56,483 nucleotides of DNA. It comes from Pseudomonadota bacterium (lineage in GTDB: Bacteria > Pseudomonadota > Gammaproteobacteria > Acidiferrobacterales > Acidiferrobacteraceae). A program made the position numbers and the translations under genes. Shown piece after piece: positions 20,572-47,746 of this stretch; positions within the stretch are counted from its first letter, which is position 1, and the number at the start of each line of letters is the position of its first letter. The stretch lies in NCBI GenBank assembly GCA_021794595.1, contig JAJYQN010000093.1, positions 1 to 56,483 of the forward strand. Reading direction: 5' to 3'. Under the pieces are notes generated by a model, which saw only the letters and a program-made list of their open reading frames with translations, was not told the origin of the DNA and ran no database searches.

Positions 20572-20592
20572 AGCGCAAGGGAGGGAGGTCAT

Positions 20593-22543: not shown

Positions 22544-22546
22544 TCG

Positions 22547-27519: not shown

Positions 27520-27799
27520 GGGACACTGACTCGCGGACCCTTGGGAAGCAAGGATCGGGTGGGCGACAAGGGGGGTGTGTGTCCCAAATGGCTCAGCATG
27601 GCGGCATCATTAGGTCTTTAGAACCGGAAGTCAATCGGTCCGCGCCACGCCCCGGCGCTCGCTTTTGGCCCAGTGCTGGGCTAGGCTTAAAAGCGCGCCC
27701 CTGGCTTGTCGGACCGCGTGTCGAGTAGGGCCGGGCGCGACTTACGCGAAGGAGGCGCGTTCACGACGCAAGGAGGCTTTTTGGGAGGTCTCCCGATCG

Positions 27800-28168: not shown

Positions 28169-28253
28169 CAAAAATATACAGCTAGGTGATTTTTATTGGC
28201 CGCGGATGGGCTATCCTAGGACCGGCCTTGTGTTCCATGAGAGGACTGATGAC

Positions 28254-28616
28254 ATGAAGGGCGCTTTGATCACTGCGGTGGTTTTGGCCACAAGCTTGTC
28301 TTTGCTCACAGTACGCACGGCGCAAGCCGCCCAAGGTCTGCCGTATGTCCATACCCACGCCGTACGCGTGGATGACGACGAGGGAGACGATGAGGGCGGC
28401 GACGGCTGGTTCCCGCTTTGGTTTGGGTTTCGTGCCTATGCCCCGCGCCGGCGGGTCATTATTCAAAGGAATTATTACCCGCCACCGCCCCCGCCGGAGC
28501 CAAGCTATTACTACTATTGTCGCGATCCCCAGGGGTATTATCCCCAGGTTCCCAATTGCCCGAGTGGTTGGATGAGGGTGTTACCGCCCAACGGAGGGGA
28601 CAATGGACCTCCTTAG
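28254..28616 (+). CDS. Secreted Pro/Tyr-rich protein of unknown function
   Basis: This 120-residue protein has a clear signal peptide (MKGALITAVVLATSLSLLTVRTAQAA, cleavage after AQA). The mature part is acidic first (DDDEGDDEGGDGW), then Tyr/Pro-rich (NYYPPPPPPEPSYYYYC), and ends CRDPQGYYPQVPNCPSGWMRVLPP. The Y-C-x-x-P-x-G-Y-Y-P-x-V-x-x-C-x-x-x-W block with two Cys is common in small proteobacterial periplasmic or outer-surface proteins. GAGGAC precedes the start. It overlaps the next gene by 14 bases. Confidence 0.7.
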   Translation: MKGALITAVVLATSLSLLTVRTAQAAQGLPYVHTHAVRVDDDEGDDEGGDGWFPLWFGFRAYAPRRRVIIQRNYYPPPPPPEPSYYYYCRDPQGYYPQVPNCPSGWMRVLPPNGGDNGPP

Positions 28617-28995
28617 GCAGCAATCGGCGCCGGTGAGCAAAGAGCGGGCCCCGCTGCGCATCACCTTGTCAGGCTCCGCGCGTCGGGCCCTCGATGCCCG
28701 GAGCGCACCCTTGGTTGTGGAAATGGAGCTCTTTTTCAGCTGCCTCGTTCGCAAGCGTTTGCGTTGGGATACGGCGGCTCTGGATGGGACCTTTTTGCCG
28801 ACCGGCCCAGGCCATGACAAGTTGCGCGTCTGGTTCCACCCCGTCGTGTCGCAGCACTGTGCGCTCCCGGCCGGCGACGATCTCGACGCCTTGCCGCTTC
28901 AGGATTTTCCATTGATGCGTAAAGAGGCGTTTACGCCCCGTTGGCTAAGGCTGGATTACCGAGGCGGCGTCTTCGTGGGCGATTTCGGCTGGTAG
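28603..28995 (+). CDS. Conserved-looking hypothetical protein
   Basis: This 130-residue soluble protein begins inside the end of the preceding gene, with GGAGGGG three bases before ATG 28603, so it is translationally linked. It has an alternating strand pattern (PLRITLSGSARRAL, APLVVEMELFFSCLVRKRLRW, DKLRVWFHPVVSQHCAL) with two Cys, and ends WLRLDYRGGVFVGDFGW. I do not recognise the family. Confidence 0.6.
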   Translation: MDLLRQQSAPVSKERAPLRITLSGSARRALDARSAPLVVEMELFFSCLVRKRLRWDTAALDGTFLPTGPGHDKLRVWFHPVVSQHCALPAGDDLDALPLQDFPLMRKEAFTPRWLRLDYRGGVFVGDFGW

Positions 28996-29063
28996 TTGAG
29001 GCGGACCCTTTGCAGAACGAGGGCCGGCCGGCGGGGAGCGATCTCCTTCCGGTCGGTGCGGGT

Positions 29064-30626
29064 CTAGAGGCAGAGCCAGATGCGTTCGCTGGCGCGGGTC
29101 ACGGCGACATAGAAGGCGCGGTGATATTCGTCGGCGCCGGCGATCTCCACCATGCCATACAAATCCGCGAGATCCACTAGCGCATAATGAAAGGTGCTGC
29201 CCTGGGCCTTGTGGGCGGTGATGGCGTAGGCGTGGGTGACCGGGGCGCAGGCGCGGGTCATGGCCCAGGCCCGACGAAAGCCCTCGGCGCTGCGATTGGC
29301 TGCGGTCCGATACTGGTCCCGCGTTTGGCGTATCAGCCGTTGATGTTCGCGGATATCGGCGGCGACAAAGAAGTCCACGGTGTCTCCGCCTACGATTTGC
29401 GCGCAAATATGCCAACTCGGGATGGCCAAGTAGGGGTGGGCCATGGGCAGGCAGTGTTGGACTATCATCTCGGTGTTGTTGGGGATCAAGTCGGCAAGCC
29501 CGTCGCGACGGCCACCGCCCGAACTCTGGGCGTTCTTCGCCGGAGCCAAGGCCCGCTCCCAGGTTTCGGCGCTCTGGTCCTCGATGCGGACTAGGGAGCG
29601 AAAGCCGTAGACGGCCTCGCGCGCGACCAGCGTCTCCCCGGGCCAAAACGGCGGGATCGGCGCCTGATCCTCGGTCTGCGCCCCGTAGGCCGCGGCCAAG
29701 GCGTGGTGGATGACGCGGTTGCGCTCATCGACCACGCGGTTACGCCAGGCGAGCACCCGGATGTCCTTTCCGGGACGGCGTTGACGGAGGCTTACGCAAC
29801 CCTCGGCGATGCGGGCCGCGGAGGCGAGTTGCACAGCGCCCCCCAGATCCTGGGCGTGGTCCGCGAGATAGCGCCGAACGGCGTCCGGATCAAAGACCCC
29901 GCTGACCTCCCCTTCGATATAGCGGCGCAGCTCTTGCGCGAATTGCACGATCGGATGGGCCCGTCCCGTGATCTTTTGGCGCACGATCTCGGTCAGCACG
30001 TGATGATGTGGGACCAGGGTAAAGACCGGCGGCCGCACGGGTCCGGGCTCGGGGGGCTCGTCTAACTGCCCTTGGCGCTCGTCTGTGACATCGCGCGCGC
30101 TAACCGGCAGGAGTTGGCCCGGATCGCCTATGTACAAGACCCGAGGCGCGGCCTTTCTGGCAAACCGCTCGATATATGACAAGAGCAGAGGCCCGACCAT
30201 GCTCGCCTCGTCGATAAAGACGACATCGAAGCTCTCAAAGTAGGTGCCGCGCGGGTGGCGATCCAGTTCGATCGAGAGAAGGCCGTCCTGGGTCTCTTTC
30301 AGTTTGAGTCCGAGGAGCGCATGCAAGGTGCCGGTCCAGACTTGGTTGTGGAGGCTCGGATCGAGTTTGGTGAGGATCACCGAGACCGCTTTGTGCGTCG
30401 GGGCGCAGATCGCGACCCGGAGTTTCGCCGCACAGGCGGCGGCCATGAGATGGGCGGCAAGCCAGGTTTTGCCAGTGCCGGCATAGCCGGCCAGCACCCG
30501 CACCGAGTGCGGGGTAGCAAGCCCGGTACAAAAGGCCGTCAGTTCGGCATAGGCCGCCTGTTGGCTTTGTGTCGCCTCGGGCGGTAGGCCCTTATGATGG
30601 GCGCGCTTGGGTTTTTTGCGGGGCAT
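29064..30626 (-). CDS. RecD/Dda-like superfamily 1 DNA helicase
   Basis: This 520-residue protein has Walker A AGYAGTGKTWLA (about residues 47-58), motif Ia ICAPTHKAVSVI, Walker B VVFIDEASMVGP, motif III YIGDPGQLLPV, and a C-terminal UvrD-like domain with AYAITAHKAQGSTF and YVAVTRASERIWLCL. This is the layout of 5'-3' RecD2/Dda helicases that act in recombination and repair. The N-terminus is basic. It lacks the long N-terminal region of RecD2. No partner recB or recC is nearby. Confidence 0.85.
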   Translation of the reverse strand: MPRKKPKRAHHKGLPPEATQSQQAAYAELTAFCTGLATPHSVRVLAGYAGTGKTWLAAHLMAAACAAKLRVAICAPTHKAVSVILTKLDPSLHNQVWTGTLHALLGLKLKETQDGLLSIELDRHPRGTYFESFDVVFIDEASMVGPLLLSYIERFARKAAPRVLYIGDPGQLLPVSARDVTDERQGQLDEPPEPGPVRPPVFTLVPHHHVLTEIVRQKITGRAHPIVQFAQELRRYIEGEVSGVFDPDAVRRYLADHAQDLGGAVQLASAARIAEGCVSLRQRRPGKDIRVLAWRNRVVDERNRVIHHALAAAYGAQTEDQAPIPPFWPGETLVAREAVYGFRSLVRIEDQSAETWERALAPAKNAQSSGGGRRDGLADLIPNNTEMIVQHCLPMAHPYLAIPSWHICAQIVGGDTVDFFVAADIREHQRLIRQTRDQYRTAANRSAEGFRRAWAMTRACAPVTHAYAITAHKAQGSTFHYALVDLADLYGMVEIAGADEYHRAFYVAVTRASERIWLCL

Positions 30627-30856
30627 CGTAGCCGGCGGTCTGGGTATAAAGGCTGTGGGGTGGGCGCGGGCTTAAGGGGCGGGACCACCCGGAAAGCGCC
30701 GGGTGTGTCAGAAGCCGCAAGACAAGCGGGGTCTTGGTCCACGGCGCGCATGGCGCTCTTTTGGCGTAGCTCCTTGGAGAACCCATCCCGGACCGATCCA
30801 ACAGACCGTTGCCTTTATCTCTCGCGCTGGTGTGTCGGTGTCGCATGGCGGCCGGT

Positions 30857-32782
30857 TTAAGCGCCCGGCCGCGGTGGGGTCTCGAGTGCTTCCCAGCGGG
30901 CATAGCAGGCGGCGAGGGCCGTTTCGATCTCTTTTAGGCGCTCGAGTGTCGCGGCGATTTGCGGCTTCTCTTGCTCGTAAAAGCCGGGCGCGCTGATCGT
31001 GGCTTCGAGCGCCCCTTGCTCGCGCTCCAGGGACTCGATGCGCATTGGGAGCTCGTCGATTTCGCGTTGTTCCTTGTAGGGGCGTTTGCTGGCCCGGGCC
31101 GCGGGGGGTGAGGCCTGTGAACTCGCCTTGCGGGCAGTCTCTTTGGACGTCCTTTCCGGGACAGGTGGCTCGGGGGATCCAAGCCCGGCCTCGACATGGG
31201 CCCGCCAATCGCTGTAGCCCCCTACGTACTCATGAACCGAGCCGCGGCCATCGAAGACCCAGGTGCTGGTCGCGACGTTGTCGACGAACGCCCGGTCGTG
31301 GCTCACCAATAACAGCGTGCCGGAAAATTCCATCAGTGTCTCTTCAAGCAATTCCAAGGTTTCGGCGTCCAGGTCGTTGGTGGGCTCATCGAGAACCAAG
31401 AGATTCGCAGGTTGCGCAAAGAGTCGGGCGAGCAGCAAGCGGTTGCGTTCGCCGCCCGAGAGCATGCTGACGGGCGACCGCAGTCGCTCCGGAGGAAACA
31501 GGAATTTGCGCAGATAGCCGGCCACGTGCTGGGTTTGTCCACCGACTGTGACGGTCAGCTTGCCGCCGCCCACGCTTTCCATCACCGTGGCTTGGGGGTC
31601 CAGTTGTTCGCGTTGCTGGTCGAAATATGCGACCTCGAGTTTGGTGCCGCGCTTTAAGGTCCCGCCGCTTGGCGGCAGATCCGCAAGCAGGGCGCGTAAA
31701 AGCGTGGATTTGCCGACGCCGTTTGGGCCTATGAGGGCAATGCGTTCGCCGCGCAGCACGGTCGCGGAAAAATCGCGGATAATTGGCGTGTCGCCGTAGG
31801 AGAGGTCGAGATGTTCGGCCTCGAAGACCAATTTCCCGGAGGCATCGGCGGTGCCTAAGCGCATATCGACCCGGCCCACCCGTTCGCGGCGTTCGCGGCG
31901 TTCGCGGCGCATGGCCTCAAGGGCCCGCACCCGTCCTTCATTACGCGTGCGGCGCGCCTTTATGCCCTGCCGTATCCAGGTCTCTTCCTCAGAAAGCCGT
32001 TTGTCGAACAAGGCGTTACGGGTTTCTTCCGCCGCCAATTCGTCGGCCTTACGGCGGAGGTAATCGTCGTAGCTGCCGGGCCAAGAGTTGAGGGTCCCAC
32101 GGTCGAGTTCGATGATGCGGGTGGCGAGCCTGCGCAAAAACGCCCGATCGTGACTGACAAAAAGCACGGCGCCTGTGTAGCTTGTGAGAAAGTTCTCGAG
32201 CCACAAGATGGCCTCAATATCGAGATGATTGGTGGGTTCATCTAACAGCAAGAGGCCGGGATCCGATACCAGGGCGCGGGCCAACATGACGCGCCGGCGC
32301 CAGCCGCCGGAGAGCGCCTTCATGCGCGCGTGGGCATCGAGCTTTAGTTCGGTGAGCACGGTGTGGACGCGCTGCTGGAGGCGCCAGCCGTCGTGGCTGT
32401 CGAGCTCCTGTTGTACAACGCCCATCTGTTCTATGATCTCGGGATCTGGGGTTGCGGTGAGGAGCGCGGTGAGCCGCTCGTATTCGGCGAGCGCGCGGCC
32501 GAGACTTGCGAGGCCACTTGCAACCACCTCGTAAACGGTTTCATCGTCGCGAGCCTCGACCTCTTGATCGAGGGTCGCGATCCGCAATCCGGATTCCACG
32601 ACGCGCTGTCCGTGGTCGGGCTTTATGGTGCCGCTGATGATCCGTAAGAGCGAAGATTTGCCTTCGCCATTACGGCCGATCAGGCAGATTCGTTCGCCGC
32701 TCTCGATCGTGAGGCTCGTATGGTCTAGTAAGGGGTGATGGCCATAGGCCAAGCCTATGTCGTCTAAGCGCAGCAAAGGCAT
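30857..32782 (-). CDS. ABC-F ATPase (Uup/YheS-like)
   Basis: This cytoplasmic protein of 641 residues has two ABC domains and no transmembrane segment. Walker A: IGRNGEGKSSLL and IGPNGVGKSTLL. Signatures: ALSGGWRRR and MLSGGERNR. Walker B with adjacent Glu: LLLDEPTNHLD and LVLDEPTNDLD. The linker of charged residues (RRERRERRERVG) between domains and a C-terminal coiled coil (about 560-635) resemble Uup/YheS. Such factors bind the ribosome or resolve DNA branch structures. The atypical SGGW in the first signature is worth noting. Confidence 0.9.
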   Translation of the reverse strand: MPLLRLDDIGLAYGHHPLLDHTSLTIESGERICLIGRNGEGKSSLLRIISGTIKPDHGQRVVESGLRIATLDQEVEARDDETVYEVVASGLASLGRALAEYERLTALLTATPDPEIIEQMGVVQQELDSHDGWRLQQRVHTVLTELKLDAHARMKALSGGWRRRVMLARALVSDPGLLLLDEPTNHLDIEAILWLENFLTSYTGAVLFVSHDRAFLRRLATRIIELDRGTLNSWPGSYDDYLRRKADELAAEETRNALFDKRLSEEETWIRQGIKARRTRNEGRVRALEAMRRERRERRERVGRVDMRLGTADASGKLVFEAEHLDLSYGDTPIIRDFSATVLRGERIALIGPNGVGKSTLLRALLADLPPSGGTLKRGTKLEVAYFDQQREQLDPQATVMESVGGGKLTVTVGGQTQHVAGYLRKFLFPPERLRSPVSMLSGGERNRLLLARLFAQPANLLVLDEPTNDLDAETLELLEETLMEFSGTLLLVSHDRAFVDNVATSTWVFDGRGSVHEYVGGYSDWRAHVEAGLGSPEPPVPERTSKETARKASSQASPPAARASKRPYKEQREIDELPMRIESLEREQGALEATISAPGFYEQEKPQIAATLERLKEIETALAACYARWEALETPPRPGA

Positions 32783-36045: not shown

Positions 36046-36880
36046 GGCTATTCGTAGCGATCATTGGCGCAATGACACAGAAGGTACCCTGCCTCATGAG
36101 CGGGCTTTGCGTGGCGATGCCCGCCTTGTTCCCAGAGCTGTGATGCTTTAGTCGCAGTTCGCGCTTAATGTCTCTTAGCCTGAATACCAGAGGTTCCCGG
36201 GGCGCTTAAAGAGGGCGGGGGGGGCGGTCTTTGAGCCGGGGCGCGGGGTTCCTAGGGCTCGCAGGTGCGGCCCCGCTCAGTTCAGGCGAACCGGGCGCGC
36301 CTTACCCGTAGGCTATTGATTGCGTAGCCGGCATCTCCGCGTTCCCCGGCCGCTCGTCTGGCGCCGTTGGTCGGCCGGGAGCGGACGGCCTCGCCGGGCC
36401 GGTTTCGCGCCCAGTGGCCGGCGGGAACCCCAATTCCTTTTGGCCGCACGCCTTTGTACGCTGGTCGCTCTGCGCGCAAGGCGACAACCATGACCATGCC
36501 CACAGCGGCATCCGTTATGTGAATCCGGCGCAACGCCATGCCGGAGAAGACACAGCCATCCTGGCTACCCGTCCTGCCCTGTACCAGGAGGCCAAGGCGC
36601 AACACTCCCGTCGCTGGTCAGGACCGACCGCAACGGGTCGCCGATCGCAGTGGTCACCTTGAATCCGGAGCGAGACGCCGCGATCAAAGTCGCTCTCGAT
36701 CCCTCAACCGAAAAACGCAGGAGTGCATGACTCAGGCGGCAACTACCTTGACGCGCACCGGCCCCCATCGGGGATTGCCCACGTTTTCTTGCCGTTTCCC
36801 ATGCGGTTGCTAGAGGCTGCCCTGGCCTTATGCGGCATCGCGAAAGAGGTATGCCGGCCGTGCGCCTAACATACTTAATT
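36046..36880. other. Non-coding stretch upstream of the dab promoter
   Basis: About 835 bases with no gene I can support. Several short frames exist on both strands with compositionally odd, Arg/Gly/Pro-rich translations and no family resemblance, as expected of GC-rich noncoding or decayed DNA. Base composition changes sharply to AT-rich at about 36870. Confidence 0.5.
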
Positions 36881-36884
36881 AATG

Positions 36885-36921
36885 TAAATAGTAATAATCG
36901 GAAATATTAAGTTCTATTTAT
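36885..36921. promoter_or_regulatory. AT-rich regulator site upstream of the dab operon
   Basis: TAAATAGTAAT at 36885-36895 is followed 22 bases later by TTAAGTTCTAT at 36907-36917, inside a strongly AT-rich island in otherwise GC-rich DNA. The segment AAATATTAAGT (36902-36912) is identical to 44825-44835 upstream of the DUF6671 gene. TTA-N8-TTA spacing within it resembles CbbR-type LysR boxes. It is inferred to be bound by the CbbR-like regulator encoded at 43269-44258. Confidence 0.6.
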
Positions 36922-36992
36922 TACCTCTCCGGCACTACAGTGAGCGCGTATCAAGCGATGGGTCATGCGCGTTTGTCGCGATGGCGCAGGGC

Positions 36993-37007
36993 TGGCACGG
37001 GACTTGT
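36993..37007 (+). promoter_or_regulatory. Sigma-54-like promoter element before dabB (weak)
   Basis: TGGCACG, four bases, then TTGT matches the sigma-54 -24/-12 pattern except for the C of the -12 GC, which is T. This mismatch falls at a key position, so the site is only suggestive. It lies about 85 bases before the leader ORF. Confidence 0.25.
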
Positions 37008-37090
37008 GCGCCGATACCACCCGATTGAGTGATGGGGCTTCAAAGGTCGGCGCATGGGGGAATCACAGCGAAATAGAGGGGGAACGGGCT

Positions 37091-37138
37091 ATGGCAATTG
37101 TTACCGTACGTGAGTTAGCAAAGGGGGTCTCGTCATGA
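37091..37138 (+). CDS. 15-codon leader peptide coupled to dabB
   Basis: ATG 37091 opens a 15-residue frame (MAIVTVRELAKGVSS) whose TGA (37136-37138) overlaps the dabB ATG at 37135 as ATGA. AGAGGGGGA lies seven bases before its start, a better ribosome binding site than most in the window. The dabB ribosome binding site (AAGGGGG, 37121-37127) lies inside the leader. Translation of the leader would therefore pass through and could control dabB initiation. It could also be chance or the relic of a longer gene. Confidence 0.45.
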   Translation: MAIVTVRELAKGVSS

Positions 37139-38787
37139 TAAACCATATGGTATCAATGCTCATGTTGTTAGCGCCTTGGCCGCTTCTTGCCGCGGGTGTC
37201 GTGATAGGGGCCGGTGCCGACCATTACCCGCGGTTCATGAGAAGCGTGACCAGCGGTGCCGCTTGGTTTGCTCTTATTTTTGCGCTCATGGCCGCGGTCG
37301 GATATGCGTTGGGAGAGACCCAGTCTACGACCTATGTGAGCGTCTCTTTGCCCCTGCACCTAGGGCGGCTTGCGATCAGCGTAGATGTCAATGTGCTGAC
37401 TGTCATCATGCTGACGTTGGTGGCCTTCGTCGGCATGATCGTGTCTCGTTACTCAAAGACCTATATGGATGGCGATGCCCGAGAGGGACAGTTCCATCGC
37501 TGGCTGGCGCTGACCTTGGGGTCATTCTTCACGCTGATCGTGGCCGGAAATATCTGGGGTTTTTGGATCTCGTGGGTGGTGACTAGCCTATGCCTGCACG
37601 AACTCCTAGCCTTCTATCGTGACCGACCCGGCGCGGTGCTCGCCGCGCGCAAGAAGTATGTGCTCCATCGCATCGCGGACATTTCCCTCTTTGTCGCGTT
37701 CGCGCTCATCGCGCGCGCACTCCATACCGCGCAATGGGCGGGTATTGCCCGGGCCCTGGCTCACGCCCCGGGCGCGCTGCCGGAGGGCTTGGTGGTGGCC
37801 GCCGCCCTCATCGTCGTGAGCGCCATCCTAAAGAGCGCGCAGTTCCCGACCCATGGCTGGCTTATCCAGGTCATGGAGGCACCGACCCCGGTGTCGGCCC
37901 TGCTGCATGCCGGCATCATCTATACCGGGGCGTTTCTGGTGCTGCGTGCAAGCCCGCTCATGGCCCATGTCGACTGGGCCGGCGATGTCCTCGCGGGGGT
38001 CGGTCTCGTATCCATCGTGGTGGCCTCGCTCACCATGATGACCATGACCAACATCAAGGGCGCGCTCGCCTACTCCACGTGCGCGCAAATGGGGTTCATG
38101 TTGATGGAGTGCGGCCTCGGGCTCTACAGCATCGCGGTCCTGCACATCATCGCGCACTCGGTCTACAAGGCCCATGCCTTCCTGTCGTCGGGGAGCGTCG
38201 TTGAACACTTTCGGGCACCTAAGCCCGTGGTGTCGGCCACCGCGACCGCGGGACGGGCGTTGCTCGGGCTTGCGATCGCGGTGGTCATGGTCCTCGGCAT
38301 CGGTCACGTGTTCGGTGTCGGGCTTGTGCGTCAACCCGCGTTGATCGTCATGGCGGCGATCCTGGCGGTGGGCATGACCCAGCTCCTGGTGCAGGCCTTG
38401 AACACCCGCGCAGGCGCCATGGGTGGCCTGCTCGTGCGCATGACGGGCTTGAGCATGTTGGTTTCTGTCGCCTACTTCGCGCTCCACATGGGCTTTGTCG
38501 CCCTCCTGGGCGCAAGCGTGCCGGCTGACCCCGTGCAGGTCGGTCTCGCGCAGAAGGTCTTGCTGGGGGTGATCGGCGTGGCATTCCTGGCCCTACTTTT
38601 CATCCAGCAGTTGTTGCCGCGCCTATCGCAGACGGCCTTGGGACGTGCCGCCTACGTCCACTTCTATGGCGGTCTCTATGCCGACAGCATGTTGACCGAG
38701 CTTGTTCGTGGCTTCGGGCCGACGCCGGGCGGGGTTGCCGGACGCCGACTTCTGAATGCGGATTCTTCACATGAGGTGCAATCATGA
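37135..38787 (+). CDS. dabB: DabB, NuoL-like membrane subunit of the inorganic-carbon pump
   Basis: This 550-residue proton-conducting membrane subunit is related to NuoL/Mrp antiporter subunits, with about 13 helices. Hallmarks include FWISWVVTSLCLHELLAFYRDRPGAV, SAILKSAQFPTHGWLIQVMEAPTPVSALLHAGIIYTGAFLV (the K-x-A-Q-x-P-x-H-x-W-L-x-x-x-M-x-A-P-T-P-V-S block), and AYSTCAQMGFMLMECGLG. It lacks the rest of complex I and is directly followed by DUF2309 DabA. In the DAB system this subunit is proposed to couple cation influx to energised, one-way hydration of CO2 to bicarbonate by DabA. The overlap with dabA is four bases. Confidence 0.92.
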   Translation: MINHMVSMLMLLAPWPLLAAGVVIGAGADHYPRFMRSVTSGAAWFALIFALMAAVGYALGETQSTTYVSVSLPLHLGRLAISVDVNVLTVIMLTLVAFVGMIVSRYSKTYMDGDAREGQFHRWLALTLGSFFTLIVAGNIWGFWISWVVTSLCLHELLAFYRDRPGAVLAARKKYVLHRIADISLFVAFALIARALHTAQWAGIARALAHAPGALPEGLVVAAALIVVSAILKSAQFPTHGWLIQVMEAPTPVSALLHAGIIYTGAFLVLRASPLMAHVDWAGDVLAGVGLVSIVVASLTMMTMTNIKGALAYSTCAQMGFMLMECGLGLYSIAVLHIIAHSVYKAHAFLSSGSVVEHFRAPKPVVSATATAGRALLGLAIAVVMVLGIGHVFGVGLVRQPALIVMAAILAVGMTQLLVQALNTRAGAMGGLLVRMTGLSMLVSVAYFALHMGFVALLGASVPADPVQVGLAQKVLLGVIGVAFLALLFIQQLLPRLSQTALGRAAYVHFYGGLYADSMLTELVRGFGPTPGGVAGRRLLNADSSHEVQS

Positions 38788-41273
38788 TCGCGATCACGGA
38801 TATCGATAAGGAGTTGAAGGCCCGGATCGACAAGGCCTGTGGACGCATCGCGCCGCTGTGGCCGCTGAAAAGCTTCGTGGCGGTCAACCCGTACTTCGGG
38901 CTTGCCGATCAGCCATTCTGGCAGGCCGATGTGACGATGAAGCGGGTCGCAGGCCAGGGGCTTACTATGCCGCGGGCGTTTTACAAAAAACGCATCGACA
39001 GCGGACGCATCACGCGCGCGGACTTGGCCTCGGCGCTGCGCGAGTCCGGGAGTACTTGGGATGTGGCGACCCTTGAAGAGGCGGTTGCCCGCCCATCACA
39101 GGCCGCATTCGCGCCACTTACGCTCGTGACCGACATCCTGGGCGAGCTCGACCGTCAGGAATGGCCGGGTTTCGTCCTGGAGCGCATCAGCCAGTACTGC
39201 GCGGGTTATTTCGACGAGGGTCAGGCCTTGTGGGCGATGCCGTGGCGGGAGCAGGGTCTCTATGCGGGCTGGCGCGAGTTCGTGCGCCTCGACCGCAATC
39301 CGCGGACGGTCGGCCTGCGCGGCATGTACGAGGCCGTGGGTGACCTCCCAGACCAGGCGCCGCGTGCTATCGGTTGGGCGCTGCGCCAGCTTGCGGTGCC
39401 GGAGGCGGCTATTGACGACTATCTGCATGCCGCGCTCTTGAGCGTGGGGGGATGGGCGGGGTGGGCGCGTTATAAGCGTTGGCAGGCCGAGCTTGCCGGC
39501 GGTCAGGACGACACCATACGTGATCTGCTCGCGATCCGCGTGTGTTGGGATGCGCTCCTCTACAAGCTACGGTTCAGCGAGCGCCTGAAGGCGCGCTGGT
39601 ACCAGGCCATGATTGCGGATGCGGGCACGGCCGCGAAGGCCGAGGCGCAGCCACAGATCTCCGCCAAGGAGACCGATGCCCTGCTGCAGACGGCCTTCGA
39701 GATCGGCTACCAGCGGGAACTCATCACCGCGCTTACGGCGGCGCCTGCGGTGTTGGCGCGCAAGGAGCGCGCCCCCGTGCATGCGGTCTTTTGCATCGAT
39801 GTGCGCTCTGAGATCTATAGGCGCGCCTTCGAGACCGTGGCCCCAACGGCACGCACCGGCGGATTCGCCGGATTCTTTGGGGTCCTGATGGAGTACTTGC
39901 CCCTGGGCGCATCGCAGGCCAAGGGGCATCTCCCGATCCTTTTCAATCCCGCGTATCGCATCTGTGAACATGTCGCCGGTGCTGACCAGGAGCAGACCAA
40001 GGCGCTCATCGCCAAGCGTCATGGGCGGTTGCGCGTGGCCGATGCCTGGAAGACCTTCAAAACCTCGGCCTCATCGTGCTTTACGTTCGTCGAGGCCGCG
40101 GGGCTGCTCTATGCCCCGAAGATGTTCGGCGACAGCATGGGCTGGACGCGCACCGTTTCGCACCCCGACGCCAAGGGGCTGGATGACGGGGCCCGCGACC
40201 GCCTGGGGCCGAAGCTCATCGGTGATCATGACCGGGGAGAGTGTGCGGCGGGCGGAATTCCGGCCGCCGATCGGCCGGGTGCCGCCGAGTTTGCGTTGCG
40301 CAACATGGGCATAATCCGCGATTTCGCAAGGCTCGTCGTCTTGGTGGGGCATGGCAGCACGACCGTCAACAACCCACAGGCTACGGCGCTCGATTGCGGG
40401 GCATGCGCCGGCCAGACGGGAGAGGCCAGCGCGCGTATTGCGGTGGCGTTGCTGAACGATCCGACGACGCGCCAGGGCCTAGCCGAAAAGGGCATCAGCA
40501 TCCCGGCCGACACGGTGTTCGTGGCCGGCTTGCATGATACGACCACCGATGAGGTGACACTGTTTGATACCGCCGCCATACCGTCTACGCATACCGCCGA
40601 TCTGCGACAATTGCGCGAGTGGTTCAAGGCTGCGGGTCAGCTCACGCGCATGGAGCGTTCCGCGTTTCTCGGGATCGGAGGGCTGCCGGAGGCGCGTGTG
40701 GACGCGGACATTAAGCGGCGTACGCGTGATTGGGCGGAGGTGCGGCCCGAATGGGCTCTTGCCAACAATGCCGCCTTCATCGCCGCGCCGCGCTCCCGCA
40801 CGGCGCATTGCGACCTCGGGGGGCGGGTCTTTCTGCATGACTACACGTGGGGCAACGATGTCGACTTCAAGACCCTGACCCTCATCATGAGCGCGCCGAT
40901 GGTGGTCGGCAACTGGATCAACATGCAGTACTACGGATCGGTCGTCGACAACGCCCGGTTTGGCAGCGGTAATAAGGTCCTGCATAACGTAGTCGGCGGA
41001 TCGATCGGGGTGCTAGAGGGCAATGGCGGTGACCTGCGGGTGGGGCTTGCCATACAGTCGCTGCATAACGGTCATCACTGGATGCACGAACCGATGCGCC
41101 TCAATGTCTTCATTGAGGCCCCGCAAGCCGCGATGGACGAGGTTATAGCGGGGAATGCCCTGGTACGGAATCTGGTCGAGAATGCGTGGCTGCATCTCTT
41201 TCAGATCGACGATGAGGGCCATATCTACCGTCGTGGTCTCGACCGGCAATGGCGCGCCGTATCCTTAAATTAA
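38784..41273 (+). CDS. dabA: DabA, zinc-dependent inorganic-carbon transporter subunit (DUF2309)
   Basis: This 829-residue cytoplasmic subunit resembles a beta-carbonic anhydrase buried in a larger protein. The zinc and active-site residues of characterised DabA are conserved: Cys337 and Asp339 in HAVFCIDVRSE, His523 in VLVGHGSTTVNNP, and Cys538 in ALDCGACAGQTG. Other family blocks include LKSFVAVNPYFGLADQPFW at the N-terminus and LHNVVGGSIGVLEGNGGDLRVGLAIQSL near the C-terminus. With DabB it accumulates bicarbonate to feed rubisco in carboxysomes or cytosol. The start overlaps dabB (ATGA). Confidence 0.95.
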   Translation: MIAITDIDKELKARIDKACGRIAPLWPLKSFVAVNPYFGLADQPFWQADVTMKRVAGQGLTMPRAFYKKRIDSGRITRADLASALRESGSTWDVATLEEAVARPSQAAFAPLTLVTDILGELDRQEWPGFVLERISQYCAGYFDEGQALWAMPWREQGLYAGWREFVRLDRNPRTVGLRGMYEAVGDLPDQAPRAIGWALRQLAVPEAAIDDYLHAALLSVGGWAGWARYKRWQAELAGGQDDTIRDLLAIRVCWDALLYKLRFSERLKARWYQAMIADAGTAAKAEAQPQISAKETDALLQTAFEIGYQRELITALTAAPAVLARKERAPVHAVFCIDVRSEIYRRAFETVAPTARTGGFAGFFGVLMEYLPLGASQAKGHLPILFNPAYRICEHVAGADQEQTKALIAKRHGRLRVADAWKTFKTSASSCFTFVEAAGLLYAPKMFGDSMGWTRTVSHPDAKGLDDGARDRLGPKLIGDHDRGECAAGGIPAADRPGAAEFALRNMGIIRDFARLVVLVGHGSTTVNNPQATALDCGACAGQTGEASARIAVALLNDPTTRQGLAEKGISIPADTVFVAGLHDTTTDEVTLFDTAAIPSTHTADLRQLREWFKAAGQLTRMERSAFLGIGGLPEARVDADIKRRTRDWAEVRPEWALANNAAFIAAPRSRTAHCDLGGRVFLHDYTWGNDVDFKTLTLIMSAPMVVGNWINMQYYGSVVDNARFGSGNKVLHNVVGGSIGVLEGNGGDLRVGLAIQSLHNGHHWMHEPMRLNVFIEAPQAAMDEVIAGNALVRNLVENAWLHLFQIDDEGHIYRRGLDRQWRAVSLN

Positions 41274-41335
41274 GCGGAGCTCAGACCAATCTGGGGTTCA
41301 AAAACACCGAGGCCCGGTTTGGCGGATACGGAACC

Positions 41336-41359
41336 GGACAGGGCGATGGCGCCCTGTCC
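41336..41359 (+). other. Perfect stem-loop 60 bases after dabA
   Basis: GGACAGGGCG and CGCCCTGTCC form a 10-bp perfect stem with an ATGG loop. There is no T-tract, so it is not a standard terminator. It could be a processing or mRNA-stabilising hairpin, or a partial block between dabA and the sensor gene. Confidence 0.55.
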
Positions 41360-41862
41360 GACTGCCGACCGGAAACGACGAGAGCGGTCCAAGGCATCCG
41401 GTTTACCGTTTTACAAAGATTCCCTTGTATCAACCGACAAAAAGGCGCGACAGACATGCATAAAAGACATAAGGCCGGTGCGCGGTTTTCGGGGCGTTAT
41501 GGATAGGTGTGGCGCAGGGATACGGGAAATAGGGGTACTGATAAGCGCCACCGGCGGCGCGGCCCGCTCGCGCCTAAAGTGGCGAGCGCCTGTCTTGGCA
41601 AGGCCGCCGCTTGGCGCCGTAGGGCTTGCTGCGATAAACGGCGGACGTTCAGGGCGCGTCCGCTCTTTCTGAAAGAGGGGGTTGGCGAAGACGCTTTGCA
41701 TCTTCGCCATGACGGCGTGAAATGTCTCTTTATCCGGATATCGGCTTCTGTTCGTCCCGGTAATAAGTGGGCGCATGGACCGTTATTGTGAGAGAATCGA
41801 ACTATTGGCGCGGCGGTTGGTTATCGCCGTTCGTTTTTCCACAAAAGGAGTGGGATAGCGTG
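41360..41862. other. Intergenic region between dabA and the PDC-sensor gene
   Basis: About 500 bases without a supportable gene. It includes a short palindrome CTCTTTC-T-GAAAGAG at 41663-41677. Promoter signals are not obvious, so the downstream gene may be read from dab or from its own promoter here. Confidence 0.4.
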
Positions 41863-42885
41863 ATGGCATCACAGGAATCATTGTTTGGGACTGTTGCGCA
41901 GCAGCGGGAGATGCTGACAAAGGTGCTCTATAAGCCCTTACGGGCGGTGGGTGACCAGTGCGCTCGGGCGTGGGGCGACCGCGATGCCCTGGAGGCGGCT
42001 TTGAAGGCCGCGTTTCTCTCCATTCCGTATTGTAAGTTTCTCTATGTGCTAGATGGTAACGGAAGGCAAATCACCGCCAATATGAGCCGAGACGGGCTAC
42101 TCGCGGAGCATTTCGGGCGGGACCGCTCCGATCGACCGTATGTCCGGGAGGCGATGTTCGAGCGAGATGCGCTCACGAATAGCCGTGGACAGCACTACCA
42201 GCATTGGGGGGACCTCGGGGATGGCGGACAGGCGACGGATTTCGTGCTGTCGGCCGCCTACATCAGTCTGCGCGCGCTGCGCCCGTCTTTGACCGCCATG
42301 CAGTTTGTGCGCGGGCCGGGTGGCGAGGTTCTGGGTTTCGTGGGCGCCGACTTTGCCTTGCGTGAGCTCCCGCAGGCGCAGGCGCTCTACGAGGATCCGC
42401 GGCGCCCTCGGCGCGTCGATGCCGATTATCCACGGCCGGACGCGCCATCGGGGGATACTCGGCTCGCGAGCAAGATGGACGGCCAGATCGACACCGTGAT
42501 CCGCGTCATGGAGGAGTTGATCCTCGTCCATGGCATTTATCATGTTATGCTGCATTTCTCGAGTAGCCAGGCGGTCGTATGGGTGGTCGATGACCCCTTC
42601 CGGTATCGCCTACTCGCCATCAACGATCTCACCAACCCCGACATCTGTTTCGCCTACCCGAAATGCTCCTACCCGGGCAATGCGCTGGTCCCGGCCGAGC
42701 GCGTCCGTGAGATCCTGGATAACATGAGGACGCTGCGCTCGATGCAGGGCCGGTTCTATTTGCGCACGGGCACCGTCAACATCTTCAACGGTATGGTCAG
42801 TTTGAGTTTCTCGTCGGACTCTTCCCATTATGTGCCGTATGAGGAGTTCCTCAAAATGGACTACTCGTTTTGGATAGATGGTTGA
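41863..42885 (+). CDS. Stand-alone PDC (Cache-type) sensor-domain protein
   Basis: This 340-residue protein has a PDC-like sensory domain at about residues 30-190: KFLYVLDGNGRQITANMSRDG, then DRPYVREAM and LSAAYISLRALRPSLTAMQFVRGPGGEVLGFVGADFALREL, typical of Cache folds that bind small carboxylates. There is no transmembrane helix, kinase, GGDEF or methyl-accepting domain. The C-terminal 130 residues (HVMLHFSSSQAVVWVVDDPFRYRLLAINDLTNPDICFAYPKCSYPGNALV) form a second globular part I do not recognise. AAAGGAG lies about 12 bases before ATG 41863; GTG 41860 is an alternative. Its position between dabA and the regulator suggests sensing of a carbon-related ligand. Confidence 0.72.
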   Translation: MASQESLFGTVAQQREMLTKVLYKPLRAVGDQCARAWGDRDALEAALKAAFLSIPYCKFLYVLDGNGRQITANMSRDGLLAEHFGRDRSDRPYVREAMFERDALTNSRGQHYQHWGDLGDGGQATDFVLSAAYISLRALRPSLTAMQFVRGPGGEVLGFVGADFALRELPQAQALYEDPRRPRRVDADYPRPDAPSGDTRLASKMDGQIDTVIRVMEELILVHGIYHVMLHFSSSQAVVWVVDDPFRYRLLAINDLTNPDICFAYPKCSYPGNALVPAERVREILDNMRTLRSMQGRFYLRTGTVNIFNGMVSLSFSSDSSHYVPYEEFLKMDYSFWIDG

Positions 42886-43268
42886 GGAGGGGGTGGGGAA
42901 CGCTCCCTGGTCCGCAGTCGGTCGCGTGCGGTGCCGCCGGTAGCTTCCCTTCCCGGCAGGTCCGAGCGCGGGTGGATGCGGGGGCGCATGAGTCATTTTC
43001 GTGCCTCTCGGGGACCGGTTTAGCGAGGCGGCTTCAGGCCGTCTGGCTTGTAGGACGGAGATACGCCCTCGGTTTCGGAGCAAGCCTCGCCCGTCCGTAG
43101 GTGTAAGCGTGTACACCACTCCAAATCTCGGGCGTAGGCGTATGTCGGGAGAGGTATAGCTCGATCTCAAATGCGCCCGATCCCGATTGTTACCGAAGGC
43201 GACATGAAGCCCTCCGCATGACGCGTGCGCGACAAACACACGGAAACTCACAGTGTGGCTGGCTTGCC
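42886..43268. other. Intergenic region, convergent gene ends
   Basis: About 380 bases between the PDC-sensor gene and the convergent LysR gene. No gene or clear terminator is seen. Confidence 0.4.
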
Positions 43269-44258
43269 TCACTTATCGCGTTTTTTCCGTGAAGGTTCTT
43301 TGTGCGGGGGGAGCGAGCGGTGCGCGTTTCCGGAATCCGCTACCCAGCCCTTGCGGATACCGAGACCCACCCCTTCTTTCACGAGGAAATCGAGGAAGAC
43401 GCTCGCGGTCAGGCCGAGTCGCTTTCCCCGCAAATGGACCGCATACCACATTCGGTTTAAAGGGAATTCGGCCACGTCGAGAATGACGAGGCGCCCGGAG
43501 TCCAACTCCAATTCGAGGCTGCTCAAGGACAACACGGATATACCCAGATCGGCCATGATGGCCTGTTTTATAGCCTCGCTCGAACCAAGTTCCATATAGG
43601 GGGCGACGTGAAGCCCGTGTTCGGCAAATAATTGCGCGGCGGAGCTGCGGGTGCCTGAGCCTACCTCGCGCAGTAAGAAGCGTTCTTCGACGATCCGCTC
43701 CAGAGGAATGGCCTTTTTGCGTGCCAAGGGGTGGTTGGGGTGGGCCACAACGACGAGGGGGTTGTCCATGAACGGTCGGAGCGCAAGATCCATATCGCTG
43801 GGAATCTGGCCCATGATCACGAAGTCGTCTTTATTCTCGGACAAGCGTTCTAGTACGCGCGCCCGATTTGTGACGATCAGCTGGGGTGAGACTTCGGGAT
43901 GTTCGTGCACGAAGATGCCCAAGAAATGCGGCATGAAGAATTTGGCGGAGGTGACCACCGCCATTTTGAGGGGGCCCGCGACCTTACCCTTCATATCGGC
44001 AATTGTTCCGGTCAGCGTTTTGAGTTGCGTCATCACCGCAAGCGTCGTGGCGTATACCTCCTCTCCGGCCCGCGTTAGTAGCAGTTTTTTCCCTACGCGC
44101 TCAATGAGCGGCAGGCCGACCGTTTCCTCGAGTCGCCGTACCTGAATATGCACAGCAGGTTGTGTCAAACAGAGCTCTTCTGCGGCACGCGTGTAGCTAC
44201 GATGGCGGGCCACGGCCTCGAAGAGTCGGAGTTGTTGCAGGGTCCAATGGTTAATCAT
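43269..44258 (-). CDS. CbbR-like LysR-family transcriptional regulator
   Basis: This 329-residue LysR regulator has an N-terminal winged helix (TLQQLRLFEAVARHRSYTRAAEELCLTQPAVHIQVRRLEETVGLPLIERVGKKLLLTRAG) and a C-terminal effector domain (GPLKMAVVTSAKFFMPHFLGIF, DDFVIMGQIPSDMDLALRPFMDNPLVVVAHPNHPLA, EVGSGTRSSAAQLF). The wording closely follows CbbR/RbcR regulators of CO2 fixation operons, which sense metabolites such as RuBP, ATP or 2-phosphoglycolate. It converges with the PDC-sensor gene and diverges from the DUF6671 gene. A TAAAGTC motif shared with two other promoters lies just before its start. Confidence 0.9.
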   Translation of the reverse strand: MINHWTLQQLRLFEAVARHRSYTRAAEELCLTQPAVHIQVRRLEETVGLPLIERVGKKLLLTRAGEEVYATTLAVMTQLKTLTGTIADMKGKVAGPLKMAVVTSAKFFMPHFLGIFVHEHPEVSPQLIVTNRARVLERLSENKDDFVIMGQIPSDMDLALRPFMDNPLVVVAHPNHPLARKKAIPLERIVEERFLLREVGSGTRSSAAQLFAEHGLHVAPYMELGSSEAIKQAIMADLGISVLSLSSLELELDSGRLVILDVAEFPLNRMWYAVHLRGKRLGLTASVFLDFLVKEGVGLGIRKGWVADSGNAHRSLPPHKEPSRKKRDK

Positions 44259-44267
44259 TAACTGATA

Positions 44268-44278
44268 TAAAGTCTCAT
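44268..44278. promoter_or_regulatory. Regulator half-site before the LysR gene
   Basis: TAAAGTCTCAT lies 10 bases upstream of the regulator's start codon. It matches TAAAGTCCTAT (44808-44818) at 9 of 11 positions and TTAAGTCGTAT (44830-44840) less well. The location, at or just upstream of the translation start, suggests autorepression by the LysR protein. Confidence 0.5.
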
Positions 44279-44794
44279 AGGGGTAAATATTCCGGAAGTT
44301 GTATATAGAGTCAACCGCGCCATACCCCCCGGGGCCGCCATCGGCCTCGAGAGGGCCGCTTTCCTTGGCCTCTCGCTCTGTCGATCTTGGCCGGTTGGTC
44401 TTGAGACGCTGGTCTTTAGGCCCTTCAAGGCCTGGTAAGAGAAACGGTGGTCTTTTTTCCCTTCAGGACGAGCACGGCGCTGAGACGCAGGGCGCCACTT
44501 TGCCCAGCAGTCACCCAGGTCCGGCATGATCGCGCGCAGGCATCATACCCGGCGGCTGCGTCAGGGGCTTGGTGGTTGACTCAGTCGGATCCTTAATTCT
44601 GGGAGCCAAAAGGCATTGGCGATGTCGCAGGGGCCTATGAGGCTGGATAAACCCAGGTGGGAGAGGCCGGGCCCATCCCGCTTGCGATGGTCTCTCCAAA
44701 AAGGCGATAGCCCGTGATGTACTCGGCATGGCTACCACTTTTGTCGGTTCTTGGTTCGGGGGCTGAACTCAACATAAGGACCTGACTCACTGAA
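44279..44794. other. Divergent intergenic region between lysR and the DUF6671 gene
   Basis: About 515 bases with no credible gene. Short frames on both strands have low-complexity, Pro/Arg-rich translations. GAGAGG (44351-44356) and CCTCTC flank a short loop that may form a weak hairpin. Confidence 0.4.
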
Positions 44795-44846
44795 GACTTT
44801 ACATAGGTAAAGTCCTATCTGCATAAATATTAAGTCGTATGTATTG
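44795..44846. promoter_or_regulatory. Double regulator site upstream of the DUF6671 gene
   Basis: A perfect inverted repeat GACTTTAC (44795-44802) and GTAAAGTC (44807-44814) is separated by ATAG. A related direct half-site TTAAGTCGTAT (44830-44840) starts exactly 22 bases after TAAAGTCCTAT (44808-44818), two helical turns. From 44808 onward the block aligns with 36885 onward before dabB, at the same spacing, with about 25 of 39 positions identical including AAATATTAAGT. This is a typical layout for LysR recognition and activation sites. Confidence 0.65.
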
Positions 44847-44958
44847 AAATAACATCCTAGCATCGGCTGGTACTGGCATCGGGCCGGTGTTTTGAAATGG
44901 ATCATCGGGGCATAAGCGTTGTGATCCCTACCCCTCATGGGTCATCGCGGCAGGTTTG

Positions 44959-45843
44959 ATGAAGACAGAACAGCAGCCAGTTGGGGCGGACGCGCCGCAT
45001 AGGAGTCTTTATCGGGGACAAGGTGTCGCTCTTCTGACACAACATGGAAAAGAGCAAGTCATAGCGCCGGCGTTGGCCGCCGCGGTAGGCTGCCTGGTAG
45101 AACGGGTGGCCGGTTACGATACCGACCTCCTCGGCACGTTTACGCGCGACATCCCAAGGCCCGGTACGCCGCTTGAGGCGGCACGTGCAAAGGCGCGTAT
45201 CGGCATGAATCTCTCGGGGCGGTCGCTGGGACTAGGGAGCGAGGGCTCGTTCGGTCTGGATCCCCATGTCGGGATGTTCCCCTGGAATGTCGAGGTTCTC
45301 CTCTTTATAGATGATTTGCGGGGTATCGAGGTGATAGGGGTCGCGCAGGGTAAGGCCAATAGCGCTCAGCTTCTCTCGACCGACCGGGCGGAAGTCGAAG
45401 CATTCGCCCGCGCCGTCGGTTTCCCAGAACACCATTTGGTATTGAGACCGGAGGGCCCAGCCGATACGCGGATCCGTAAAGGGATCTCCGACTGGCCCGG
45501 ACTCAAGGACGCCTATGCCTGGGCTGTCTCGCAATCTGTCAGCGGGAAGGTATTCGCGGAGGTGGATCTTCGCGCGTACGCCAACCCCGTGCGCCTGACA
45601 CATATTAGGCAGGCGGCGGAGGATCTTGGGAGGCGTCTTGGCTCTCTCTGTCCGATTTGTAATACCCCCGGGTTCTGGGTCGTCGAATCCCTGCCGGGTT
45701 TGCCGTGTGAGGCCTGTCGATCCCCTACGCGACAGATCCGCGCCGAGATCCATGGCTGCCTTAAGTGCCAACATCGGGTGACCCGCGAGTACATCGACCG
45801 TGAGTATGCAGATCCAGGCCAATGTGATGTGTGTAATCCGTGA
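44959..45843 (+). CDS. DUF6671-type protein with C-terminal zinc-finger region
   Basis: This 294-residue soluble protein starts LYRGQGVALLTQHGKEQVIAPALAAAVGC, then DTDLLGTFTRDIPRPGTPLEAARAKARIGMNLSGRSLGLGSEGSFG. The C-terminal 75 residues hold four Cys pairs: CPIC, CEAC, CLKC and CDVC, forming two zinc ribbons. The whole resembles the DUF6671 family, which is uncharacterised. The start is ATG 44959, with weak GCAGG upstream. The promoter region carries the same regulator site as the dab operon, so a role in the inorganic-carbon response is inferred. Confidence 0.7.
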   Translation: MKTEQQPVGADAPHRSLYRGQGVALLTQHGKEQVIAPALAAAVGCLVERVAGYDTDLLGTFTRDIPRPGTPLEAARAKARIGMNLSGRSLGLGSEGSFGLDPHVGMFPWNVEVLLFIDDLRGIEVIGVAQGKANSAQLLSTDRAEVEAFARAVGFPEHHLVLRPEGPADTRIRKGISDWPGLKDAYAWAVSQSVSGKVFAEVDLRAYANPVRLTHIRQAAEDLGRRLGSLCPICNTPGFWVVESLPGLPCEACRSPTRQIRAEIHGCLKCQHRVTREYIDREYADPGQCDVCNP

Positions 45844-46072
45844 GACTGGGACGATAAAAGCGCGCCCGGCAGGTCAAGGGATTCCGCTGCCTGGCCGCGA
45901 ACTCCTGCTTTGTGTGTTCCGCCAGAGCGCCATGCGGAGGTATTCGAAAAGACCGGGGCTATAAAGAGGCGAGAACGGTTTGGGGGCTTTAATGGCCCTA
46001 AGTATGAGCGTTCACCACGCGATACATATCGCCCAATCCCGATGCTATGTCGGATTCATTGAGGAGCAAAGC

Positions 46073-47746
46073 ATGCCAAGTAATCGTAACAGCCGCATTG
46101 TGACCGAGGGCCTGCAAAGGTCACCAAATCGCGCGCTTCTGCGGGCAGTCGGGTTCGGGGATCAAGATTTTGAAAAGCCCATTGTCGGGATCGCGAATTC
46201 CCATAGCACGATCACCCCTTGCAACATCGGTATCGGTGCGCTGGCTTCCCGCGCCGAGGCCGCCTTAAGAGACGCAGGGGCGATGCCACAAACATTCGGC
46301 ACCATAACGATATCAGACGGAATCTCCATGGGAACCGAGGGAATGAAATATTCTCTGGTATCAAGAGAGGTCATTGCCGATTCTATAGAAACCGTTTGTA
46401 AAGGTCAGAGTATGGACGGCGTACTCGCTTTTGGCGGCTGCGATAAGAATATGCCGGGCGCCATGATTGCGATTGCGCGGATGAATATCCCGGCCGTGTT
46501 TGTTTATGGCGGCACGATAAAGCCCGGTCACTACCAAGGCCGAGATCTCACTATCGTCAGCGTTTTCGAAGCAGTCGGGGAACGTATCGCGGGCAAGATT
46601 AACGACCAAGACGTGTATGAGATAGAGCGGCGCGCGTGTCCTGGCGCCGGTTCTTGCGGTGGCATGTACACCGCTAATACTATGTCGTGTCTCTTCGAGG
46701 CCATGGGGATGAGCCTCCCTTATTCATCGACTATGGCGGCCGAGGATGCGGAGAAGGCCGACAGCACGGAACAGTCCGCGAAGACGCTAGTAGAGGCAAT
46801 AAAGGCTCAGATCTTGCCGCGCACCATTCTTACGCGCAAAGCGTTTGAGAATGGTCTTGCGGTGTTGATGGCCTTGGGTGGTTCTACCAACGCCGTGATC
46901 CACATGCCCGCGATAGCGCATGCCGCCGGTGTCGAATTGTCTATGGACGATTTCAACGACTTTAGCGCGCGGGTGCCTGTATTGTGTGATCTCAAGCCGT
47001 CTGGGCGTTATGTGGCGACCGACCTCCATCGTGCTGGAGGTATACCGCAAGTCATGAAAATGCTGCTGACCAATGGCCTTTTGCACGGCGACGCGCTGAC
47101 TGTAACCGGGCAGACACTGGCAGAAACCCTGGCGGCGGTACCGGATGAGCCGCGTCGCGATCAAGACGTTATCAGGCCTTGGGGTCGACCGGTCTACGCA
47201 CACGGTCACTTGGCGATCCTGAAGGGTAATTTGGCCGAAGAGGGAGCGCTTGCGAAGACCAGCGGGGTTAAAGTTCCCAAGATCACGGGGCCTGCTCGGG
47301 TGTTTGAATCGGAAGAGGCCTGCATGGCCGCCATCCTGGAGCGTCGGGTTATGCCCGGTGACGTTGTGGTCATTCGCTATGAGGGTCCGCGCGGGGGCCC
47401 CGGTATGCGCGAAATGCTTTCGCCCACCGCAGCCCTTGTGGGCCAAGGCCTTGGCGATAGCGTCGGGCTTGTCACGGACGGGCGTTTTTCCGGCGGCACT
47501 TACGGTATGGTAGTGGGGCACGTGGCACCGGAGGCGGCGGTAGGCGGTACGATAGCGCTGGTTCACGAGGGGGACATGGTGACTATAGATGCTGAGCAGA
47601 GACGGTTGCATCTCGATATATCGGACGATGAGATTGCACGTCGCAGGCAGGCTTGGCGCCCGCCCGAGCCGCGCTATACTCGCGGCACTTTGGCTAAGTA
47701 TGCGCGACTCGTATCATCGGCAAGCCGCGGCGCGGTTACGGATTAG
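46073..47746 (+). CDS. ilvD: Dihydroxy-acid dehydratase
   Basis: This Fe-S enzyme makes 2-keto acids in valine, leucine and isoleucine synthesis. Cluster-ligand motifs are visible: ITPCNIGIG (Cys), [10 protein letters not shown] (Cys) and [18 protein letters not shown] (Cys). [12 protein letters not shown] and [23 protein letters not shown] complete the active site. It has 557 residues. GAGGAG five bases upstream supports ATG 46073 over an earlier ATG at 45980. Confidence 0.95.

Follow-up and report, generated by a model that had tools for sequence, protein, structure and literature searches.

The operators bound by the LysR-type regulator CbbR before the cbb operons of Acidithiobacillus ferrooxidans and other bacteria are the closest described counterparts of three AT-rich sites in the stretch of DNA considered here (the window: contig JAJYQN010000093.1, 56,483 nucleotides (nt), C91 of genome G000, which has 2,921,737 bases). 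In those systems the LysR protein is encoded near its targets, recognition and activation sites are made up of boxes with the CbbR/LysR consensus TNA-N7-TNA / T-N11-A, and a sigma-70-like promoter follows downstream (PMC2942843). The window sites resemble them and stand before dabB, before a DUF6671 gene and at the start of a lysR gene between the two. A second likeness is to the cyanobacterial CmpR and NdhR/CcmR, the nearest solved relatives of the LysR protein of the window; regulators of this type control carbon-uptake genes (PMC3401165), although they belong to different bacteria and act on a transporter other than DAB. The third is to the DAB inorganic carbon pumps, whose dabB and dabA families are both present in the window above cut-off; the main text of the corresponding paper uses neither LysR nor operon as a term (PMC13144422). 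Control of DAB pumps in chemolithoautotrophs is little described: full-text searches on dabA/DUF2309 with LysR and on Acidiferrobacter with CbbR gave no paper, most subscription journals being outside the search. An operator of a CbbR-type LysR protein is well known as a kind; what is new is that it serves dab genes in this lineage, together with the link to DUF6671. With a probability of about 0.78, the three sites serve as operators for a CbbR-type regulator, the LysR-type protein encoded among the dab genes.

The sites share the core TAAA-N13-AAATATT. Its only exact matches in the window, and in the whole 2.92 Mb genome, are those at 36885-36908, 44268-44291 and 44808-44831. A third-order Markov model derived from the window gives 0.32 exact matches expected in the genome against the three observed, and the reversed core had no exact match in the whole genome; the claim of the sequence-only reading, that the likeness was unlikely to arise by chance, is thereby upheld. 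Chance likeness of AT-rich stretches was rejected on these two counts and on the lack of reversed-pattern matches in the family. Core matches with one mismatch were also rejected as evidence, the genome holding 17 of them vs 15 for the reversed control, so that only exact or profile matches carry weight. The sequence-only reading had further reported that the 11-mer AAATATTAAGT is identical at two places, that the stretches aligned from 36885 and 44808 agree at about 25 of 39 positions, that paired half-sites lie 22 bases apart and that a perfect inverted repeat precedes the DUF6671 gene. The 11-mer is indeed found at 36902-36912 and 44825-44835, the count of 25 was reproduced, the arms TAAATAG/CTATTTA lie at 36885-36891 and 36914-36920 with 22 nt between them, and GACTTTAC/GTAAAGTC occupy 44795-44802 and 44807-44814. 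At the lysR gene it had called only a half-site 10 bases from the start codon. The half-site stands (TAAAGTC begins at 44268, the first base of the minus-strand start codon being 44258), but it is part of a full site that the reading had missed: TAAAGTC-N9-TAAATATT at 44268-44291 is spaced like the other two copies and makes a complete third one.

Conservation was followed in a family set of 18 genomes, which includes 13 other species genomes of the genus of the window genome. A longer pattern, TAAA-N14-AA-N2-TTAAGT, written from sites in G000 and its relatives, has 28 matches in 16 of the 18 genomes and none when reversed. All 28 stand before genes of the proposed regulon or before a further operon, here called operon x (14 before dabB, two before dabA2, a second dabA gene, three before DUF6671, eight before operon x and one at lysR). 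As the pattern was built on some of its own sites, independent support comes from the absence of other matches and from the sites held out. Zero-mismatch matches precede dabB in 13 of the 18 genomes (14 sites, G006 having two); the dabB site of G002 stands before a mere dabB fragment at a contig end. A further genome, G013, has a dabB site by profile (score 42.0). A weight matrix trained on 27 sites, those before dabB and DUF6671 in the window included, scores its training sites at 32.9-63.9, while the maxima in ten random windows are 1.4-8.7. It found nine sites outside the training set (27.7-58.8): six before dabA2 (52.3-58.8), one before operon x (42.5) and two before DUF6671 (30.0 in G009, 27.7 in G016). 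By profile no site was found on the DUF6671 contig of G014 (best 6.6), in G021 (best 8.2) or at the dab locus on C59 of the window genome (best 3.1). The motif is thus present upstream of orthologous genes in the genome and its relatives, as the sequence-only reading would have it, with the G014 contig and G021 as exceptions. Ten of the 14 dabB regions were compared in pairs, with positions counted from TAAA as zero. Identity is highest between -10 and +40 (0.58-0.86), lower from there to +80 and at -20 (0.39-0.46), and lowest outside these limits (0.24-0.36).

Among relatives, the core is also matched exactly on G010:C49 and on G003:C80; these two matches do not have ATTAAGT, score below 8 on the profile and were treated as background. 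Spread of the motif through the order was rejected, 39 genomes outside the family giving three matches vs 13 for the controls, which is background. In G006, two similar dabBA copies (C108 and C112) have slightly different operators and may reflect a duplication or mixed strains.

Of the 48 family sites, 47 have a T-N11-A box at -10, 44 have one at +13 and 38 at +23. Box letters lying outside the search pattern are kept as well: 47 sites have T at -10, 41 have T at +33 and 44 have A at +35, the frequencies in the flanks being 0.20 for T and 0.17 for A. In five of six family classes, the best or second best of 50 offsets for a TATAAT-like hexamer lies at +48 to +51; the hexamers near +50 are TAGCAT, TAAAAT, TAATAT, TAAATT, TATAGA and TTACAT. 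Taken together, the boxes and the -10-like hexamer look like a classical LysR recognition-plus-activation site. A presumed transcription start near +62 would put the three boxes at about -66, -43 and -33, where LysR regulators usually have their recognition and activation sites. A sliding-dimer mode has been proposed for this family; by analogy, two activation boxes ten bases apart suggest such a mode here.

The LysR protein of the window has a helix-turn-helix domain (PF00126, 77 bits) and a substrate-binding domain (PF03466, 172 bits). The best curated NCBIfam model is CbbR, NF045990, at 237.9 bits (next 179.5); since this is below the equivalog cut-off of 450, the protein is named CbbR-type and is not filed as a CbbR equivalog. 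Among solved structures NdhR/CcmR (5y2v, 287 bits) and CmpR (5z49, 188 bits) come nearest, the next protein reaching 96. Orthologues at 80% identity or more occur in 14 of the 18 family genomes and group together in the tree (100/100), separate from the paralogues. The element lies at the lysR start in all 14 fetched orthologous loci, with scores of 14.2 in the window genome and 18.2-45.1 elsewhere. In G014 (L090 93-2653) the orthologue (237.4 bits on the CbbR model) and a RuBisCO large-subunit gene (461 bits) are divergent, with a site of 45.1 between them that has TAAAGT at about +50, and dabBA follows a few kb further. As in the CbbR systems, the same regulator clade and operator thus stand beside RuBisCO itself, and for this reason the clade, judged from gene order, is CbbR-like in setting as well as in sequence. 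Unlike those systems, the targets in the window are the dab genes and DUF6671, to which other relatives add an aldolase-like gene and a small-GTPase operon, and no site was found at the RuBisCO-family genes of the window genome. We infer that the LysR protein of the window binds the operators, whose coordinates are collected in Table 1 together with those of the neighbouring genes.

Table 1. Proposed operators, putative promoter elements and genes in the part of the window that holds the dab and DUF6671 genes
Feature	Position	Strand	Basis or remark
Operator before dabB	36875..36920	+	Profile score 56.7, in training set
dabB operator, recognition box TTAATTAATGTAA	36875-36887	+	
dabB operator, core TAAA-N13-AAATATT	36885-36908	+	
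dabB operator, activation boxes	36898-36910 (weak), 36908-36920	+	
Putative -10 region of dabB promoter (CTACAG/TACAGT)	36935..36941	+	Inferred; offset as in relatives
dabB, Proton_antipo_M membrane subunit	37135..38787	+	PF00361, 128.6 bits
dabA, inorganic carbon transporter subunit DabA	38784..41273	+	PF10070, 904 bits
Unlabelled conserved 340-residue protein	41863..42885	+	Also encoded near dab and LysR in Ferrovum (59-60% identical)
LysR-type regulator, CbbR/CmpR/NdhR group	43269..44258	-	Domain, model and structure searches
Third operator copy, overlapping the LysR start codon (core 44268-44291)	44258..44303	+	Score 14.2, not in training set
Possible LysR promoter, TTGACT, 17 nt, AATATT, inside operator	44286..44314	-	Consensus scan; weak
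Perfect dyad GACTTTAC-N4-GTAAAGTC at recognition box before DUF6671	44795..44814	n/a	
Operator before DUF6671	44798..44843	+	Profile score 46.8, in training set
DUF6671 operator, boxes and core	Boxes 44798-44810, 44821-44833 (weak), 44831-44843; core 44808-44831	+	
Putative -10 hexamer TAGCAT of DUF6671 promoter	44858..44863	+	Inferred
DUF6671 gene	44959..45843	+	PF20376, 138.2 bits; four CxxC pairs

On this arrangement, a LysR dimer would bind the recognition box at offsets -10 to +2, about 66 bp before the predicted start, and a second dimer would occupy one of the two activation boxes (+13 and +23), which are one helical turn apart and next to the -35 position. With a co-inducer bound, the second dimer would touch RNA polymerase on a promoter whose -35 is weak and whose -10 lies near +50, perhaps after a shift between the activation boxes, and the signal would presumably be low CO2. 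The regulator would in this way activate dabBA and DUF6671; it would probably repress its own gene, whose start codon is touched by the recognition box. The putative LysR promoter of Table 1 is a single match in a sigma-70 scan where 0.6 are expected by chance, and if that weak match is real, its position inside the operator would make LysR self-repressing.

Several observations weigh against this account. The complete TNA-N7-TNA form is present in only 22 of the 48 family sites at -10, 13 at +13 and 32 at +23, and the search pattern itself prescribed some letters of every box. The best offset for the hexamer is +34 in the dabB1 class (3.79 of 6, then 3.36 at +48 and, later, 3.14 at +50) and +20 in the operon x class (3.89, then 3.67 at +51). 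At the LysR site of the window genome the activation box and the rightward -10 are degenerate, and at dabB the sigma-70 consensus scan gave no promoter. Three genomes (G002, G007 and G017) have a dabB site and no LysR orthologue that could be found; they are 80-85% complete, and it is not likely that the gene was missed by chance in all three. Moreover, T-N11-A boxes are common to LysR proteins, so that a paralogue could bind. Two further negatives concern the promoters: the three lysR sites not paired with an aldolase-like gene, when combined, show no TATAAT-like hexamer at +50, and the consensus scan did not pick up TAGCAT before DUF6671.

The last of the objections to binding by the local protein leads to an alternative in which the operators are real but serve chiefly another CbbR-type paralogue, such as that beside RuBisCO on C59, or several of them, the local LysR being minor or redundant. 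It draws on the fit of the boxes to the general CbbR/LysR consensus and on the paralogues, 43-48% identical, that G002, G007 and G017 do have. CbbR is also the best model for three family paralogues, at somewhat higher scores (252-260 bits vs 237-238 for the clade of the window LysR), so that the match does not single out this clade. The incompleteness of G002, G007 and G017 tells against the alternative, as does the placement of the sites, which occur at each of the 14 orthologous lysR loci while 16 fetched paralogous ones reach 13.1 at most. In the window genome, RuBisCO-family matches lie on C59, C132 and C146, away from the window LysR, and in the stretches fetched round these three genes no profile score exceeds 2. 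Binding mainly by a paralogue is accordingly considered improbable, and control by the local CbbR-type protein is favoured by the specificity of the sites, their conservation, the register of the boxes, the hexamer that recurs and the association with this clade of LysR proteins. The C59 locus (12666-31467) holds a second, longer DabA and a RuBisCO gene beside a LysR paralogue 43% identical to that of the window; no operator was found in the stretches fetched there.

The regulon proposed for the window from the sequence alone, comprising dabB-dabA, LysR and DUF6671, is supported by sites before the orthologous genes of relatives, where the element stands before DUF6671 or before its upstream partner, dabA2. 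In nine relatives LysR is divergent from the aldolase-like gene, which the sites serve too, and in eight of these nine DUF6671 follows dabA2, which has an operator of its own. The aldolase-like protein of G004 falls below every listed NCBIfam cut-off (best 148.4 vs 423). No recognisable dabB was found beside dabA2 (39-49% identical in pieces) at L070, L071, L073, L075, L076, L079, L083 and L087. The window genome has neither the aldolase-like gene nor dabA2 at its LysR-DUF6671 locus; as G016, of another genus, also has no dabA2 before DUF6671, either arrangement may be the ancestral one. Operon x encodes a protein of about 318 residues without an assigned role and then a small GTPase (PF03029, 48.4 bits). 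It is present in nine of the 18 genomes with the element upstream in each (about 500 bases away in G014); in the window genome no gene of this operon turned up. At L073 (10461-12100 and 13221-15167) a GGDEF-EAL protein is encoded downstream of operon x.

This gene order allows a second alternative, namely that the operator before DUF6671 is a leftover or by-product of the aldolase-dabA2-DUF6671 arrangement and that DUF6671 is functionally outside the response. The arrangement in relatives, of which the window genome lacks both the aldolase-like gene and dabA2 at this place, fits such a history, and so does the weak LysR-side site of the window genome (14.2). The site before DUF6671 is nevertheless strong where dabA2 is missing, in G000 (46.8), G010 (51.0) and G012 (59.4), all of them training sites, and is found at lower scores in G009 and G016 as well; DUF6671 is also near bicarbonate transporters in unrelated bacteria. 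A leftover operator is rated slightly less probable again than binding by a paralogue. A third alternative, by which they would be no specific operator but general AT-rich sites of a promoter (an UP element) or of a nucleoid protein (IHF-like), is scarcely credible, since AT-rich though they are in a window of 56-65% GC, the strict matches in the 18 genomes all precede one small gene set with no reversed control among them, the boxes keep a fixed register and conservation beyond about -20 and +80 is no higher than background.

All of 16 DUF6671 sequences compared share eight cysteines, arranged as four CxxC pairs, from which the protein is read as probably zinc-binding. Its predicted fold (mean predicted local distance difference test score, pLDDT, 81.3) has no match in the PDB at E<=0.001; the best matches, cyanophycin synthetase (E 0.0027, template modelling score 0.21) and YjjX (E 0.0063), are leads only. 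The genomic setting was examined in the best 80 of 247 DUF6671 loci (L159-L238, Proteobacteria and Actinobacteria), with up to 10 kb on each side and less in some. A DabA or SbtA transporter lies in the neighbourhood in 50 of the 80, DabA in 23 and SbtA-type in 27, none having both; 30 have neither, some of these with short stretches. The 80 loci are not independent, several being Acidiferrobacter relatives and five from different genera (L182, L183, L185-L187) looking alike. In 17 loci DabA and DUF6671 share a strand and fewer than 400 bases separate the end of DabA from the DUF6671 gene that follows. The SbtA identity rests on Pfam for one locus (L181, 390 bits), the other 26 being tblastn matches to L181 at 39-97% identity. 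In a class sample of 274 genomes, 68 have DabA, 46 SbtA and 12 both. DUF6671 occurs in 12 genomes of this sample (one below the family cut-off and one a contig-end fragment), and all 12 have DabA or SbtA vs 102 of the 274 overall (hypergeometric P about 5e-6, two of the 12 belonging to the genus of the window). The transporter is within about 4 kb of DUF6671 in nine of the 12 and not in two (G174 and G191); for G255 this cannot be told. A tentative reading, given somewhat less than even odds, is that DUF6671 is a general and hitherto unrecognised partner of bicarbonate uptake in bacteria. It would be an alpha/beta protein, its tail rich in cysteine and probably zinc-binding, would serve the unrelated DAB and SbtA transporters, perhaps as a regulator of activity or a metabolite-handling enzyme, and would be co-induced with them by CbbR-type LysR proteins. 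No paper naming DUF6671 was found in the searchable literature, which omits most subscription journals. In the window DUF6671 is followed by ilvD (the two span 44959-47746). pyrC and ilvD are frequent neighbours among the 80 loci, several of them in distant bacteria (L183, L168, L227), which may represent an old gene order.

Beyond the family, two Ferrovum and two other proteobacterial contigs (L202, L206, L218 and L221) have a cluster of dabB-dabA-DUF6671, LysR and the gene for the 340-residue protein. Elements in the same register stand in their dabB and LysR regions, and before dabB only in L190 and L224. All ten of these Ferrovum-type elements have TNA-N7-TNA at each of the three offsets, with CATAAT (nine) or CACAAT (one) at +50. 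They were counted among 18 profile matches displayed from outside the family; of the eight not counted, only L169 has CATAAT at +50. Matrix scores of the Ferrovum-type elements (13.6-23.7) overlap those of AT-rich loci without DabA (L174, 14.4; L193, 15.7; L178, 16.8), so that scores alone prove nothing there and it is the shared register and the -10 that tell.

As to the remaining genes of the window, dabB and dabA are adjacent with a 4-base overlap. The presumed dabB leader (36947-37134), of about 190 bases, leaves room for a second layer of control. The 340-residue protein has no Pfam family at E<=1 and no credible solved relative; the gene of its Ferrovum counterpart (L202 14386-15378) is divergent from LysR, with an operator between.

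The observation made from the sequence alone is correct, and its interpretation is very probably so. With a precise operator and a named candidate regulator, control of the DAB pump becomes testable, and the operator offers an anchor for finding other carbon-response genes. The sites link the DUF6671 protein to inorganic-carbon uptake, and the association of DUF6671 with two different bicarbonate transporters provides a concrete hypothesis for the family.

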